A DNA stretch of 20,200 nucleotides, from positions 1 to 20,200 of IMG/VR virus record IMGVR_UViG_3300008450_000621. The stretch is one strand, 5' to 3'. This DNA comes from a virus. Below the pieces are notes generated by a model. That model saw nothing but the letters and a program-made list of their open reading frames with translations. It had not been told where the DNA came from and ran no database searches. Each line of letters opens with the position of its first letter. Position 1 is the first letter of the stretch. This document shows, piece by piece, positions 1,736-19,393 of this stretch. Made by a program: the position numbers and the translations under genes.

Positions 1736-2911
1736 GTGGGCATTCTTGATCGAATCTTGGGGCGTGAGGGAGAGCAGCGGCAGGTAGGCGGCATGTGGCC
1801 TGTTGAATCTGACGTTGCAGGGGTGAGCCTAAACGAACGCAACGCAACATCAATTGGCGCGCTGTATGCGGCGGTGAAGCTCTACGCTGACACCGTGGCA
1901 AGCATGCCCGTGGGCGTATTCATTCGGGATCGTGGCGTTCGCCGCCCGGTGACGCGCCCGCTCTGGCTTGATAACCCTGTGCCGAATAACAAAAACTATA
2001 CGCGCTTTGATTTGATGCACCGCACCGTGAGCAGCCTGCTCATTGACGGCAACGCATTCTTGATGGTGTTGCGTGGTGACAATGGCGAGATTGTTGAGGT
2101 GCGCCTGCTTGACCCGCGCAAAGTCACGGTGCTTCGCGCCGATGACGGCTCACCGATTTACCGAATCACCACCACATCGGGCAAGATCGATCTCACCGAT
2201 GATGACATTGTGCACATCACCCTGTTTGGTGTGGGCGAAGATTTGCGCGGCCTCAGCCCTGTTGAGCATCACAAGGTGACGTTGGGGCTTGCAAAGGCAA
2301 CGATGGAATACGCTTCGCGTTTCTTTGAGCAGGGCGCTTCGGTTTCGGGCTTGGTTACCGTACCGGGAGAGCTCACCAATGATCAAGCAGAAACCCTACG
2401 CGCATCGTTCGGGCGACGTCACGAAGGGCTGCGCAACATGCACAAAATTGCCGTGCTCACGGGCGGCGCTGATTTCAAGCCGCTCACCTTCAAGCCTTCC
2501 GATCTTGACATTGTGGCAAACATGGAGGCGGGCACGCAGGCCGTGGCGCGAATCTATGGCGTGCCGCTGCACCTGCTTCAATTGCCGGGCGGCAATTCGT
2601 CATACAACAGCCTAGAGATTGTCAGCCGTGAATGGCTGATGCTTGGGTTGGGCAGCCTGATTGCGCGGCTTGAGGCAGGGCTTCAGCGCCTCATCGTGGG
2701 CGAAACCACATTCATCAAATTCAACGTTGATTCAATGCTGCGCCCGCTCACCAAAGAGCGCTTTGACGCCTACGCCGTGGCGCTCAATAACGGTTTCTTG
2801 AGCCTGAATGAGGTGCGCACGCTTGAGGATCGCGCACCAATCGGCGCTGATGGTGACACCTTCAGGCAGCCGCTCAACATTGGCACCGTAGGTGAGGAGC
2901 CTCAGGCTTGA
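1736..2911 (+). CDS. Portal protein (HK97 family)
   Basis: Twelve copies of this protein would form the ring through which DNA enters and leaves the capsid. The 391-residue length, and the sequence from the N-terminal S-I-G-A-L-Y-A-A-V-K-L helix through the L-L-I-D-G-N-A segment, a P-L-H-L-L motif and E-W-L-M-L-G helix, fit the HK97-type portal family (Phage_portal). It starts at GTG 1736, 11 bases after the terminase stop, with a GGGAG ribosome site at 1723-1727. Its TGA stop overlaps the TTG start of the next gene, so the two are likely translationally coupled. The gene order terminase, portal, protease, capsid is the standard HK97 order. Confidence 0.93.
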   Translation: MGILDRILGREGEQRQVGGMWPVESDVAGVSLNERNATSIGALYAAVKLYADTVASMPVGVFIRDRGVRRPVTRPLWLDNPVPNNKNYTRFDLMHRTVSSLLIDGNAFLMVLRGDNGEIVEVRLLDPRKVTVLRADDGSPIYRITTTSGKIDLTDDDIVHITLFGVGEDLRGLSPVEHHKVTLGLAKATMEYASRFFEQGASVSGLVTVPGELTNDQAETLRASFGRRHEGLRNMHKIAVLTGGADFKPLTFKPSDLDIVANMEAGTQAVARIYGVPLHLLQLPGGNSSYNSLEIVSREWLMLGLGSLIARLEAGLQRLIVGETTFIKFNVDSMLRPLTKERFDAYAVALNNGFLSLNEVRTLEDRAPIGADGDTFRQPLNIGTVGEEPQA

Positions 2912-4413
2912 GCTACATCATCGTTGATCTTGACGGCACGCTGATTCTTGAGAATGAGCAGCCGAATCAGCCGCTCATTGATCACCTGAACGCGCAGGTG
3001 ATGAGCGGTGATGCCCAATTGATTGTGGTGAGCGCCCGTAAGGTTGACCGCCTTACCGAAACCCGCGCATGGCTGCAAGAGCATGGCGTTGCAGGCGTTG
3101 ATGAAATCCATTTGAATGATTTTGAGGGCAGCGCCTTCGCCACCGGGCTTGCATTCAAAGAATACAAATACGGCCTGCTTGCCACCGAATACGGCAGCGA
3201 AATCGAATACGCAATTGACAATGACCCTGACGTGCGCGCAATGGCACGCGGTTTGGGCATTGAGGCGTACAGCCCTGAAGAGGCGTTGCGCGAAGAGCAC
3301 CGCGCCATTGTGCAGGTGCCTGCCTACATTTCAGCCGCTGCAACCGCAGGGCTTGAGGCGTATGAGGGCGGGCTTGCAGGCGAAGGCTTGCAGGATCAAA
3401 CCGTGCGCGAAGCGCGGCAGCTTGCAGCGGGCAGCGTTGATGATGAAAAGGTGGTGCGCATGGCTGCGTGGATTCGCCGCCATCGTGGTGATTGGGAAGG
3501 CGTGCCGCAGAATAGTGACCCTGAGCACCCCGATTTCCCTGCACCGGGGGCGGTGGCGGCCCTGCTTTGGGGCGTCAATCCCGTAGACACAAACGGCGCC
3601 GATCGTGTGTTGGCATGGGCAGATAGAATCGTTGCGGAGGCGGCACAAAAGGAGAGCAATGCAATGGCACGTGAGCACGAAACCCGCGCCCTACCATTGG
3701 GCGATTTCAGCGTTTCCGAAACCGAAGATGGGCAGAAAACCTTCAGCGGGTATGCCGCGATTTTCAACGCAGAATCATCGGGGCTGCCATTCATTGAGCG
3801 CATTGCAAAGGGTGCCTTCAGCCGCGCAATCAAGCAGGCTGAGCAGGGGCGCCGCGTCATCAAATTTCTTCACGGTCACGATGAAAGCCGCATGCTTGCC
3901 ACCACGGCAAGCGGGCGCCTGAGCCTCACCGAAGATGAGGTTGGGCTGAAGGTTGAGGCGCGGCTTGATCCCGCTGACCCTGACGCCGCAGCCGTGATCT
4001 CAAAACTACAAAACGAATCAAAGGCAATGGGCATGAGCTTTGGGTTTACCGTGCCGAAGAATGGGCAGGTTTGGAACGATGACGGCAGCCGCACCCTTAC
4101 CGAAATTGGGCTGCTTGAGGTGTCAACGCTCTCAGGCCATCAGCCTGCCTACCCGGCAACGCTTGGGCTTACCGCCGTGCGAAAGATCGCGCCTGCAAAG
4201 ATCGGCGTTGATGGTGACGCATTGGTTGAAACGCTTGAAGCCGTGAAGGCGGGCACCGCTCTTGACGCTGACCAAACCGCTCTGCTTGACGCTGTGCGCG
4301 CCCGATTGGGTGCAGCCGCTGAGCCTGAGGCGATCGAATCTGAGCCTGCACCAATGGGTGAGCACCACACGATTGTGGCAGCCCGCCTCAAATTGGAGCA
4401 GCTCAAGGGATAG
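2908..4413 (+). CDS. HAD phosphatase-like domain fused to prohead protease (U35)
   Basis: This 501-residue protein has three parts. Residues 1-130 look like a HAD-superfamily phosphatase: D-L-D-G-T at 7-11 (nucleophile D7, acid/base D9), V-V-S-A-R with S42, lysines at 84 and 87, and D-N-D at 104-106. Residues 135-245 form a central domain (V-P-A-Y-I, T-V-R-E-A-R, W-I-R-R-H, D-F-P-A-P-G, A-L-L-W-G) that I recall from other phage head proteins but whose function I do not know. Residues 255-430 match the HK97 prohead protease: F-S-G-Y-A-A-I-F, L-H-G-H-D (probable catalytic H324) and M-G-M-S-F-G-F (probable S377). The protease trims scaffold and capsid during head maturation. It starts with TTG 2908 inside the portal stop. 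There is an internal start at 3664. Confidence 0.88.
   Translation: MSYIIVDLDGTLILENEQPNQPLIDHLNAQVMSGDAQLIVVSARKVDRLTETRAWLQEHGVAGVDEIHLNDFEGSAFATGLAFKEYKYGLLATEYGSEIEYAIDNDPDVRAMARGLGIEAYSPEEALREEHRAIVQVPAYISAAATAGLEAYEGGLAGEGLQDQTVREARQLAAGSVDDEKVVRMAAWIRRHRGDWEGVPQNSDPEHPDFPAPGAVAALLWGVNPVDTNGADRVLAWADRIVAEAAQKESNAMAREHETRALPLGDFSVSETEDGQKTFSGYAAIFNAESSGLPFIERIAKGAFSRAIKQAEQGRRVIKFLHGHDESRMLATTASGRLSLTEDEVGLKVEARLDPADPDAAAVISKLQNESKAMGMSFGFTVPKNGQVWNDDGSRTLTEIGLLEVSTLSGHQPAYPATLGLTAVRKIAPAKIGVDGDALVETLEAVKAGTALDADQTALLDAVRARLGAAAEPEAIESEPAPMGEHHTIVAARLKLEQLKG
3648..3666 (+). promoter_or_regulatory. Internal ribosome site and in-frame ATG before the protease domain
   Basis: AAAGGAG at 3648-3654 lies 9 bases before ATG 3664, which is in frame with the large fusion protein (Met253). 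Initiation here would give a 249-residue stand-alone prohead protease, close to the usual length of this family (HK97 gp4 is about 225 residues). The site is as good as any ribosome site in the window. I infer that both a long fusion and a short protease are made, or that two ancestral genes have merged without losing the second start. Confidence 0.6.
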
Positions 4414-4521: not shown

Positions 4522-5625
4522 ATGTCTGACGCTATCAAGAATCTGGCTGAAAAGCGCGCCGCGCTGCTAACCGATGCTTCAAGCATCGTGGCAGAGCATG
4601 CCGAAAAGGGCGAAGCCCTGACGGCTGAGGCAGCCGTTCTCAATTCCGCGATCTCTTCGGAGAAGATCGCCGCAGAGGCCCGCGCCGCCGCTGATGCTGC
4701 CCGTTCGGAAAAGGCTGTTGCCTTCGCCCCGGCTGCCGATGCAAAGCGTGACCTTTCCGCAGAGCTTCGCCGCATTGCCCGTGAGGGTGGTGAGGTTGAG
4801 CTTCGCGACATTACCAAGGCAACGTTCACGCAGCAGGTTGAGCAGGGTGATCGTTTCTGGGTCACGGCTGGGCAGGTAAACCCATTCGTTGATCCTGCGG
4901 TTGTCACCGTGCTTCAGGTTGCAAAGGGCAATGTGATTGCGCTCCCGCGCACCACGGCTCTAGGCACCGCTGCCGCTGTGAATGAGGGAAGCAACATTGG
5001 CGAGAGCGACGGAACGAACAGCTCCCTCAGCCTCACGCCTGTGAAGTACGCTTCGCTGCTTCAGGTTGGTATTGAAACCGTTCAGGATGAGATGTTTGAC
5101 GTTGCCGCTTGGGCAACCGAAAAGCTCGCCGCCGAGCTTGCCGTTGCACATGGGGCCGTTGCAGGCCCTGCCGTTGCGGCAGCCGCTACCGTTGGCAAGC
5201 AGGGTGCAGCGATTGCGCCTACGTATGCTGACCTGCTCGCGCTGATCTACAGCGTGAAGCAGCAGGATCGCCGCGCTGCGAAGCGTGGTTTCTTGATGAA
5301 CGACACCACGCTTGGTGCCATCATGGGCTTGGTTGACGGCGCAAGCCGCCCAATCTTTGTTCCGGGTGACCAGAGCCGCCCGGACACCATTCTTGGTTTC
5401 CCGGTGTATTCAGCCGCGTTGGCTGATAACGGTGACGAAGCCTTGAGCATTGCCTTCGGCAACCTTGGGGCCGTATACACGGCTGTTGCGGGAGCGCCTG
5501 CAATTGAGGCTGACCGATCCTATGCGTTTAACGCAGGGCTCATCACCTACCGTGGTATTCTTCGCGGCGCTACGGGTCTGATCGATCCAAACGCTGTTAA
5601 GACATTCAAGGGCGCGAACGTCTAA
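4522..5625 (+). CDS. Major capsid protein (HK97 fold)
   Basis: This is the main shell subunit. At 367 residues it is close to HK97 gp5 (385). Residues 1 to about 95 are Ala/Glu/Lys-rich and helical, fitting the delta domain that serves as an internal scaffold and is removed by the prohead protease encoded just upstream. The remainder has the Phage_capsid pattern: a V-L-P-type strand region (I-A-L-P-R near 139), E-G-S-N-I-G-E-S (E-loop area), S-L-L-Q-V-G-I-E-T-V-Q-D, G-F-L-M-N-D-T-T, and I-L-G-F-P-V-Y. Start ATG 4522 has AAAGAGG upstream. A strong hairpin terminator follows the gene. It appears richer in GCT, GTT and CTT codons than its neighbours, which would suit high expression, though I did not count this. 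Confidence 0.95.
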   Translation: MSDAIKNLAEKRAALLTDASSIVAEHAEKGEALTAEAAVLNSAISSEKIAAEARAAADAARSEKAVAFAPAADAKRDLSAELRRIAREGGEVELRDITKATFTQQVEQGDRFWVTAGQVNPFVDPAVVTVLQVAKGNVIALPRTTALGTAAAVNEGSNIGESDGTNSSLSLTPVKYASLLQVGIETVQDEMFDVAAWATEKLAAELAVAHGAVAGPAVAAAATVGKQGAAIAPTYADLLALIYSVKQQDRRAAKRGFLMNDTTLGAIMGLVDGASRPIFVPGDQSRPDTILGFPVYSAALADNGDEALSIAFGNLGAVYTAVAGAPAIEADRSYAFNAGLITYRGILRGATGLIDPNAVKTFKGANV

Positions 5626-12202: not shown

Positions 12203-13900
12203 ATGGTTGAGAAATTTGGCAGCGATCAACAGCAAATCGCAACGCTAGGCGGCGGCGTCATCAGCGAAGATGGCGCCACGCTATTGAGCGGTGAGAGCAC
12301 GGGGGAAAGCGCCCTGCTCTTCGGCCCCGCCTCCCTGCGGGAGATCAAAGCAGGCGTTGCCAACGGCGATTTTGCCATTGCCCCGGCTGACCCAACGGGG
12401 ACGATCACCGCTGACAATGCGTTGCCCTATTGGACTTTTACCGATGTAAACAGCGCGGGCGCGATTACCGCTGCATTGGTTGCCGATGCAGGCGCGGCCT
12501 CAGGCAACGTGTTGCGCTTCACCGTGGCAAGCGGCACCCTCACCGGGAAGAGCGCCACCCTCACCCGATTTATTCCCGTGCCATCTTCAGCCTCACGCTC
12601 ATTCTCATTCTATGCCGAAGCCACGTTTGAGAGCGGCACGGCAAGCACGCAGGCAACGGCAACGCTCAGCGGGCAATTCTACAAAATTGATCAGGCAACC
12701 ACCACGGGCAGCCCGATCACATCAGATACGTACCCGTTTTCATCTCTAGTTGGCGCAACGGGAATAACCGCCCCTGATCTCTACGGGGTAGCACCTGATC
12801 TCACCACGATGACCGCGCCCGCCGATGCGGCTTTTTTGAAAATCACCATCACCATTGCAACGGTTGCCACGCAATCTGCCGATCGCACGGTTGATCTAAC
12901 CGAAGTGCGCGTGACGGCGGGCCTTCCTGAGCTATTGATTACCGATAGAGATGATCCAACAAACCCGCCCGCTGTAATCAATGCATCAGCGGGTGAGCTC
13001 AACATTCAGAGCGGCTCAGGTGACTACCTTTTGATTCGCCCCGATGCGTTATTTGTCGCCGCAGATTCAATGGGCATCAACGCCGGGTCAGGCGATGCAA
13101 CGATTACTAGCGGTGATAACGTCAACCTGATTGCCCCTAACGGCGTTTACGTCACCACAAACGGTACCACCGAAGGATCAATCTATGCAGCAAATGTCAT
13201 TTCGGCTGGTGACCTTCGGCTGTTGGCTGATGGTGGTGACGTTTATCTAAACAGCACGGCGGCGGGCGTTGGGCCGCGCCTGCTCTTCAGGGATAGTGCG
13301 GGCACATTCTACGGCGGGCTTCGAATGGAGGGCGCCAACGTATTTCGTTTTTATAACGGCAGCACAACCAACGATTATGCCTACATTTACGCAGAACGCA
13401 TCTACGCAATGGACGGCACCACGGCCAGCCGCTACATGTTTGATAACGGCACACAAACAGCGTTCAGCGGGCCGATCCTAGCGGGCGCAATCACATCAAC
13501 AGGAAACGTGAGCGCCAATCAATACAGCGCTGACAGCATCACAGGCACCACGGCAACCACAAACGCCGCCATTTGGGTGCTTACCGCAGGCACCACGTAC
13601 AACCTACGCCGCAACACATCTTCGGCGCGATACAAAACAAACATCGTTGATGCTGATGAGGCGGTGCTAGAGGCAGCCCGTAAGATCAAGCCACGCCACT
13701 ATGAATCAACCATTGCCGATGAGGCGGGCGCAACGCGCTTGGGATTCATTGCCGAAGAGGTAGAGGCGGCAGGGCTTACACATGCCGTGGGGTATGACGC
13801 TGAAGGCCGCGTTGATACGATTGACCCCACCGCTTTGATTGCCGCGCTCTTTGCGCGCGTCAATGATCTTGAAGAGCGGCTGAAGGCGCTTGAGGGTTGA
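12203..13900 (+). CDS. Tail fibre or spike with C-terminal S74 chaperone domain
   Basis: This is a 565-residue host-recognition protein. Residues 1-50 probably attach it to the tail tip. Residues 50-245 form a beta-sandwich-like region that resembles a carbohydrate-binding module by composition. From 255 to 460 there are repeated short beta strands with N-G/D-G turns, as in fibre shafts. Residues 471-565 are a peptidase S74 intramolecular chaperone: N-T-S-S-A-R-Y-K-T-N-I, K-P-R-H-Y-E, L-G-F-I-A-E-E-V, and a final coiled coil (V-N-D-L-E-E-R-L-K-A-L-E). The S-S/K pair (residues 473-478) is the self-cleavage site in this family. The domain folds the trimer and is then cut off. GGGG before ATG 12203 is the ribosome site. 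Confidence 0.9.
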   Translation: MVEKFGSDQQQIATLGGGVISEDGATLLSGESTGESALLFGPASLREIKAGVANGDFAIAPADPTGTITADNALPYWTFTDVNSAGAITAALVADAGAASGNVLRFTVASGTLTGKSATLTRFIPVPSSASRSFSFYAEATFESGTASTQATATLSGQFYKIDQATTTGSPITSDTYPFSSLVGATGITAPDLYGVAPDLTTMTAPADAAFLKITITIATVATQSADRTVDLTEVRVTAGLPELLITDRDDPTNPPAVINASAGELNIQSGSGDYLLIRPDALFVAADSMGINAGSGDATITSGDNVNLIAPNGVYVTTNGTTEGSIYAANVISAGDLRLLADGGDVYLNSTAAGVGPRLLFRDSAGTFYGGLRMEGANVFRFYNGSTTNDYAYIYAERIYAMDGTTASRYMFDNGTQTAFSGPILAGAITSTGNVSANQYSADSITGTTATTNAAIWVLTAGTTYNLRRNTSSARYKTNIVDADEAVLEAARKIKPRHYESTIADEAGATRLGFIAEEVEAAGLTHAVGYDAEGRVDTIDPTALIAALFARVNDLEERLKALEG

Positions 13901-19195: not shown

Positions 19196-19393
19196 ATGCC
19201 CCTGTTTGATTACCAATGCCGTACCTGCAACGTGACCGTTGAGGCGCTTGCCCCGGCTGACGGGCGCAAAGCCCTGAGGCATGAGGTGTGCGGTGCAAAA
19301 TTGTGGCGGCTATTCAGCCCACCCGCCGTGATCTTTAAGGGTGAGGGCTTCGCAAAGAATGATCGGAGGGCTAAGAATGGCAAAGGCATTTGA
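19196..19393 (+). CDS. FmdB-like zinc-ribbon protein
   Basis: This 65-residue protein begins M-P-L-F-D-Y-Q-C-R-T-C, the signature start of the FmdB/CxxC_CxxC_SSSS family of putative regulators. It ends with F-K-G-E-G-F, also a family feature. The second knuckle reads H-E-V-C-G, where family members usually have C-P-x-C, so His may replace one Cys. It appears intact. Its function in phages is unclear. It overlaps the exonuclease gene by 17 bases, with a GGAGGG site at 19365-19370. Confidence 0.75.
   Translation: MPLFDYQCRTCNVTVEALAPADGRKALRHEVCGAKLWRLFSPPAVIFKGEGFAKNDRRAKNGKGI

Follow-up and report, generated by a model that had tools for sequence, protein, structure and literature searches.

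Gene organization of the locus

The virus record IMGVR_UViG_3300008450_000621 (IMG/VR) has a length of 20.2 kb and encodes a terminase, a portal protein, an HK97-type capsid protein, a connector and tail genes; the whole stretch of 20,200 nucleotides is referred to as the window. The gene described in this report, 2908–4413 on the plus strand, is located between portal (Pfam PF04860, 1.8e-73) and capsid protein (PF05065, 5.6e-26), giving the gene order portal-protease-capsid. It is a single open reading frame (ORF) of 501 codons with zero internal stops. The start codon TTG 2908 overlaps the portal stop codon (TGA 2909–2911) and the stop codon is TAG 4411–4413. Three parts are present: a HAD phosphatase domain (residues 1–129), a central module termed CEN (residues ~133–245) and a Peptidase_S78 (S78) prohead protease (residues 269–419). 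A second, in-frame start lies ahead of the protease. An initial annotation had described a 501-residue gene between portal and capsid, and coordinates, frame and flanks are confirmed.

2894–2899, plus strand: Shine-Dalgarno (SD) sequence GAGGAG of the long form (from the sequence; duplex of −7.8 kcal/mol with the 16S tail; spacer 8)
2908–4413, plus strand: long ORF, HAD-CEN-S78 prohead protease, 501 amino acids (Pfam and PHROG; full-length relatives)
2908–3294, plus strand: HAD phosphatase domain, residues 1–129 (phrog_415, AlphaFold, Foldseek; D7, D9, T11, S42, R44, K84, D104, D106)
3304–3642, plus strand: CEN module, residues 133–245, predicted all-helical (AlphaFold, BFVD, phrog_2859)
3712–4164, plus strand: S78 protease core, residues 269–419 (PF04586, TIGR01543; H324, S377, E404)

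The HAD domain

Residues 2–123 match phrog_415 (polynucleotide kinase) in the PHROG profile search (4e-13). The alignment-based AlphaFold model of residues 1–129 is compact, with a predicted local distance difference test score (pLDDT) of 93.6, and has a Rossmann-like HAD fold. Its top Foldseek matches are HAD phosphatases, and the best match to a solved structure is the 3' phosphatase of T4 Pnkp (pdb entry 5uj0, E 4e-6, template modelling score 0.74). The model thereby bears out the HAD fold expected by the initial annotation. The link to Pnkp comes from PHROG profiles and structure comparison; a search with the A1 profile against PDB sequences gave no match.

HAD motifs I–IV are present as DxDGT (D7/D9), S42, K84 and D104/D106, as initially annotated, and so is K87. 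Among relatives D7, D9, S42, R44, K84, K87, D104 and D106 are near-invariant with occasional exceptions, such as D7E in L017 and G10D (DDT) in L212. In the alignment with T4-type Pnkp most conserved HAD residues align, and R44, the arginine of the S-x-R motif, is invariant; its counterpart in T4 Pnkp is presumably R213. The ratio of non-synonymous to synonymous substitution rates (dN/dS) is 0.05–0.33 in unsaturated pairs, which corresponds to purifying selection. Because of the fold match, the conserved catalytic residues and the purifying selection, residues 1–129 are assigned, on the basis of the predicted model, to the HAD phosphatases of the Pnkp type by fold.

The domain shares with the 3'-phosphatase domain of T4 Pnkp (5uj0, 2ia5) the fold, the HAD core DxDGT, S-x-R, the lysine and the ID-N-D motif. 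Unlike T4 Pnkp, it has a shorter active-site loop and no ligase partner was found in relatives; the ORF contains no 5'-kinase domain according to Pfam and PHROG.

The CEN module and the prohead protease

The middle region of the ORF matches phrog_2859 (function unknown), and CEN is predicted to be all-helical (AlphaFold, pLDDT 88.8). Structure comparison gave no match in the PDB. Among the viral models of BFVD the CEN fold is joined to prohead proteases and to HAD-like, XkdF, ParB-like, portal and capsid proteins. CEN is a phage-only, head-associated module and corresponds to the phage-associated central domain noted initially. In Roseobacter phage CRP-831 (L228:4473–7397) CEN comes first in a 974-residue CEN-DUF5824-protease-capsid fusion that is annotated as major capsid protein. 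Capsid can be released from this protein only by cleavage or by an internal restart.

The S78 prohead protease profile spans residues 243–436 (1e-33, Pfam and PHROG). PF04586 (Peptidase_S78) scores 102.7 bits against a curated cut-off of 21 (E 3e-29) and TIGR01543 86.7 bits against a cut-off of 59 (E 1.6e-24), which confirms the annotated fusion to an S78/U35 prohead protease. The active-site His and Ser are conserved within the motifs GHDES, GMSFGF and LLEVS, and H324, S377 and E404 are invariant.

The internal start

The sequence AAAGGAG is located 9 bases upstream of an in-frame ATG, from which 249 residues remain; this part of the initial annotation is correct to the letter.

3648–3654, plus strand: internal SD sequence AAAGGAG (−8.9 kcal/mol; other sequences replace AAAGGAG in other lineages)
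3664–3666, plus strand: internal ATG (codon 253), predicted start of the short form (42 of 49 clusters keep a start codon in this column)
3664–4413, plus strand: predicted short form, plain prohead protease, 249 amino acids (Peptidase_S78 1.1e-29; matching start of standalone proteases)

Standalone S78 proteases begin at the equivalent of codon 253 or within about ten residues of it, and the first codon of the standalone protease of Phage Wrath is the exact equivalent of residue 253. The predicted release of a normal-sized protease from the internal start agrees with these positions. The further proposal of a major short form and a minor long form is not established: both SD sequences are good (−7.8 kcal/mol for the long form, −8.9 kcal/mol for the internal site), and the one advantage of the short form is its ATG, as opposed to TTG.

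In 39 of the 42 clusters with ATG, GTG or TTG at the conserved column, the start codon is accompanied by an SD sequence of −5.9 kcal/mol or stronger. GAGGAG, AGGGAG, GAGAGG and AAGGAG occur as SD variants in other lineages, followed by ATG, GTG or TTG, and the distant S78 lineages, too, differ in their SD sequences. The internal start therefore appears to be conserved as a function, not as a sequence. A search for homologues with the same fusion and a conserved AAAGGAG-ATG had been proposed as a check; the fusion and, in most clusters, the start column are retained, and the exact letters of SD and start vary. In L151 and L153, which have undergone recent CEN deletions, SD and ATG are retained despite the loss of CEN.

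Codon choice at these positions is nearly uniform. Valine at the start column is encoded by GTG in 25 of 25 clusters (13 of 13 with stricter thinning) against a background of 31%, the SD arginine by AGG in 19 of 19 and 10 of 11 against a background of 4%, and leucine at the start column by TTG. Codon use is more homogeneous in the GTG column than in any other column tested (30 clusters, median nucleotide identity 60%). Columns of CGC, AGC and GAC are codon-homogeneous as well, and the evidence is therefore confined to the GTG column and the AGG counts. This comparative evidence, drawn from lineages that are not independent, shows codon-level selection on the internal start, and the nested start is very probably functional.

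In phage lambda (C/Nu3) and in herpesviruses (UL26/UL26.5) the capsid protease gene has an in-frame internal start as well, and it is the scaffold that is made as the nested short product. In the gene described here, by contrast, the short product would be the protease and the part confined to the long form an enzyme-like cargo. Family, gene order and a capsid protein with N-terminal delta domain are shared with HK97-type prohead proteases (Peptidase_S78/U35, TIGR01543), of which the predicted short form is a normal member; the ~250 extra N-terminal residues comprising HAD and CEN and the two starts distinguish the gene from that family.

Relatives and module exchange

The fusion is deeply conserved: it is open over its full length in at least 80 distinct metagenomic virus contigs with identities of 59–95%. 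In L362 (1379–2762) and L395 (ORFs at ~1971–3417) the frame breaks at the CEN-S78 junction; these are single contigs and probably assembly errors. HAD-CEN-S78 is by far the commonest architecture across the fetched loci, a set that was gathered partly with HAD queries and in which some contigs were entered more than once. The other fronts are PYL-HIP-CEN-S78, HAD-HIP-CEN-S78, HAD-KFT-CEN-S78, HAD-(KFT)-DUF5824-CEN-S78, PYL-HAD-CEN-S78, PYL-DUF5824-HIP-CEN-S78, PYL-HIP-DUF5824-CEN-S78 and a few HAD-S78, where PYL, KFT and HIP are labels coined in this analysis for small modules. L372 (2985–4217) and L382 (622–1875) have HAD joined straight to S78, without CEN. The same HAD-CEN front is borne by the distant S78 lineages L308/L386, L446/L458 and L456. 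As many module combinations precede the same protease, distant S78 lineages included, the front of the protease is, by this comparison, a cassette zone for exchangeable modules, in which HAD is the cargo met most often among the sampled loci.

HIP is a four-cysteine module (CGNCxFY...C...YYCxAW) with a weak match to HiPIP (Fe-S) and is a possible redox cargo. It is found before prohead proteases in L214 (1276–2913), L219 (2329–4086), L201 (2173–3870) and Pontimonas phage phiPsal1 (L082:3809–5263). An 846-residue 'hypothetical protein' of Salinibacter phage 15_1 (L229:4086–6626), which recurs in many Salinibacter phages, contains a DUF5824-like module and matches S78 weakly.

The closest isolated relative is the 484-residue prohead protease of phiPsal1 (AUV61415.1, MG835450). 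It has CEN, S78 and the same gene order, but PYL and HiPIP-like modules stand in place of HAD and its internal start is ambiguous. The 'Prohead protease' A0A6J5R419 of an uncultured Caudovirales phage (BFVD/UniProt) also has 501 residues and a CEN that is 60% identical. It probably has the same architecture; its name is an automatic one and the likeness rests on length and CEN. UniProt already holds similar fusions from uncultured phages, named 'Prohead protease' and 'HAD-like domain' proteins.

A common motif at module junctions

The modules start after a common motif, which reads ExRAVYxVP for CEN, xRALPDxYRP for HIP, ExRAPVAG for KFT, RADAPAPP for DUF5824 and ExRALPxG or ExRSLPIG for S78. 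The pattern [DE]-x-R-[ASDVIL] is found at 60 of 81 thinned module boundaries, compared with 15 ± 3.4 after residue shuffling. Its density per residue is 0.0455 at boundaries and 0.0078 inside domains. All distinct CEN-S78 boundaries (150/150) contain it, and 27 of 29 capsid representatives show E-x-R-[DA][VIL] at the presumed delta-domain boundary. Two proteins that played no part in defining the motif fit it as well, the CRP-831 fusion with EERAV, KERAM and ERRAV and the Salinibacter protein with DKRAAV.

3295–3306, plus strand: candidate processing site E130-H131-R132/A133 at the HAD/CEN border (junction-motif enrichment)
3679–3690, plus strand: candidate processing site E258-T259-R260/A261 before the protease core (motif in 150 of 150 distinct CEN-S78 boundaries)
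4798–4809, plus strand: candidate delta-domain cleavage site E93-L94-R95/D96 of the capsid protein (motif in 27 of 29 representatives)

Being common to unrelated modules and to the delta-domain boundary of the capsid protein, [DE]-x-R-[AVSD] is a candidate cleavage site. This suggests that the protease may cut the modules apart as it cuts the capsid protein; that the modules are separated is slightly favoured over their staying joined. The initial annotation had proposed that the HAD part could be cut off, and the shared junction at module and capsid boundaries supports this proposal.

Other genes of the window and host

The region 12203–13900 encodes a tail protein with a C-terminal Peptidase_S74 chaperone of endosialidase (9e-9), which is probably a second self-cleaving protein of the window. 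A 65-residue protein with a zinc ribbon is encoded at 19196–19393 (Zn_ribbon_8, 6e-7, under the curated cut-off). PADLOC gave no match to any defence system. No prophage or host with the same HAD was found in the GTDB reference genomes, and therefore no host is assigned; the relation to phiPsal1, and this alone, hints at a Microbacteriaceae host.

Discussion

Polyvalent proteins (Iyer et al. 2017, PMC5512222) are multidomain proteins encoded among virion genes. Their effector-type domains are N-terminal and an assemblin-like peptidase, which has the prohead protease fold, is always C-terminal; processing at virion assembly and delivery with the DNA were proposed. The terms 'polynucleotide kinase' and 'phosphatase' are absent from the main text of PMC5512222. 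The protein described here, encoded in the virion gene cluster, likewise joins two or more unlike domains and ends in an assemblin-like peptidase. It differs in being the main prohead protease of a portal-protease-capsid cassette, in its conserved nested start and in the shared junction motif. A phosphatase-like domain on a head protease, which the initial annotation called unexpected, is thus less unexpected in view of the polyvalent proteins and the UniProt fusions. The novelty lies in a phosphatase of Pnkp type, a nested start that is conserved, the variety of exchange before one protease family and a common junction. In the open-licence literature no description of this fusion or of a two-start prohead protease was found.

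The attached front domains and the second start for the bare protease make the gene look like a carrier for exchangeable cargo. In the proposed mechanism, one gene would give rise to two nested products, a long form of 501 residues from TTG 2908 and a short form of 249 residues from ATG 3664. The long form would be a self-processing polyvalent head protein, in which a Pnkp-like HAD and the helical CEN are joined to the prohead protease, and the short form an ordinary protease. The protease part would bring both forms into the procapsid. Once activated, the protease would cut the delta domain of the capsid protein and its own module junctions at E-x-R/A-type sites. The freed phosphatase would remain inside the head until it was ejected together with the DNA, and early in the infection its target would be 3'-phosphorylated ends of nucleic acids or a related phosphate. 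How many copies bear cargo would be governed by the two starts. As a whole, the best explanation is that the gene encodes, in nested fashion, a plain protease and a polyvalent protein that processes itself and is borne by the capsid, with belief and doubt about evenly balanced. That the cargo is virion-borne and delivered is somewhat more doubtful, and a 3' phosphate of nucleic acid as substrate of the HAD domain is a tentative prediction.

Up to the two start signals the mechanism rests on sequence; beyond them we infer both products, co-packaging, cleavage, retention, ejection and substrate. Several observations weigh against this explanation. The HAD loop after motif I is 12 residues shorter than in T4-type Pnkp and has no Arg; the active-site residue of T4 Pnkp in this loop is presumably R176. 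In 16 long relatives, whose contigs may be incomplete, neither a kinase (AAA_33) over the cut-off nor a DNA or RNA ligase was found, and a classic end-repair pathway with a kinase or ligase partner is rejected for these relatives. In L193, L194 and L198, where a 692-residue protein (from L193:2014) contains two extra modules, the catalytic nucleophile is lost (D7G, YGIDGT). The HAD of this lineage may be inactive, and HAD is thus not always an active enzyme. No start codon is present at the conserved column in L071, L212 and L383. The CEN-less L372 and L382 have no internal start, so that the long form alone must act as the protease there. Since E, K and R abound in the linker, chance internal sites are frequent: synonymous re-encoding of the same amino acids yields an equally good site in a median of 26% of trials, and by the per-sequence synonymous null, in whose place the codon-choice test across clusters and the column ranking were used, the internal site is non-significant in most clusters. 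The data in which the junction motif was recognized are for the most part those on which it was tested, and it is for that reason a strong lead, not a result.

The results of the per-sequence null and the fusions without internal site in L372 and L382 would also fit a gene that makes the long form only, the internal SD and ATG being left over from a protease gene that was once separate, or else a side effect of the E/K/R-rich linker. This is quite improbable, as GTG is used for Val in 25 of 25 cases and AGG for Arg in 29 of 30 across differing linkers, with TTG for Leu at the same column, and a relic would not have survived a dS of about 2. Practically negligible is an artefact in which a lost stop codon or a frameshift joined two genes. 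The unusual length and the frame breaks in L362 and L395 point in this direction, but at least 80 contigs, which come from many samples, have the fusion as an open frame, and it occurs in lineages with different module orders, by which sequencing error, frameshift and lost stop are ruled out. The local mutation or sequencing error named as an alternative in the initial annotation is refuted accordingly.

The other two alternatives concern the role of the modules. HAD and the other modules might be folded passengers that give the inside of the procapsid its shape or size as scaffold, counting device or plug, with catalysis beside the point and the two starts tuning the amount of scaffold. Retention of HAD in frame in the L193 lineage despite D7G, the interchange of chemically unrelated modules and the occurrence of CEN with proteases, portals and capsid proteins are consistent with such a role. 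It is unlikely nevertheless, as almost every other lineage has retained the catalytic residues; the HiPIP-like, HAD and DUF5824 modules, moreover, share no sequence, which makes one structural role for all of them difficult to envisage. HAD could instead ride on a strongly expressed late gene, be cut off before or outside assembly and work in the producing cell, in nucleotide metabolism or in end repair during packaging. HAD phosphatases frequently act on small metabolites, the late operon position would provide high expression and candidate cut sites flank HAD. A separate gene would serve equally, however, without constraint on the protease, and the head-associated CEN stands between HAD and protease, so that this possibility, too, is considered improbable.

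If the nested carrier gene proposed here is real, the prohead protease, whose only known task is to trim the shell, also serves as a loading device for virion-borne enzymes: the cargo enters because the protease must enter and is released because the protease cuts it. Junction motif and internal start predict which bonds are cut and which peptides the virion holds, and capsid-borne effectors could be found in metagenomes through the domains that precede prohead proteases. In the widest and rather speculative form of this proposal, a large group of phages from aquatic habitats would have in their head-maturation protease a general cargo chassis. Interchangeable enzyme modules would be cut at the E-x-R junction shared with the capsid protein and carried to the next host, the nested start would set the cargo dose, and the phosphatase would undo 3'-phosphate damage from a host defence nuclease.

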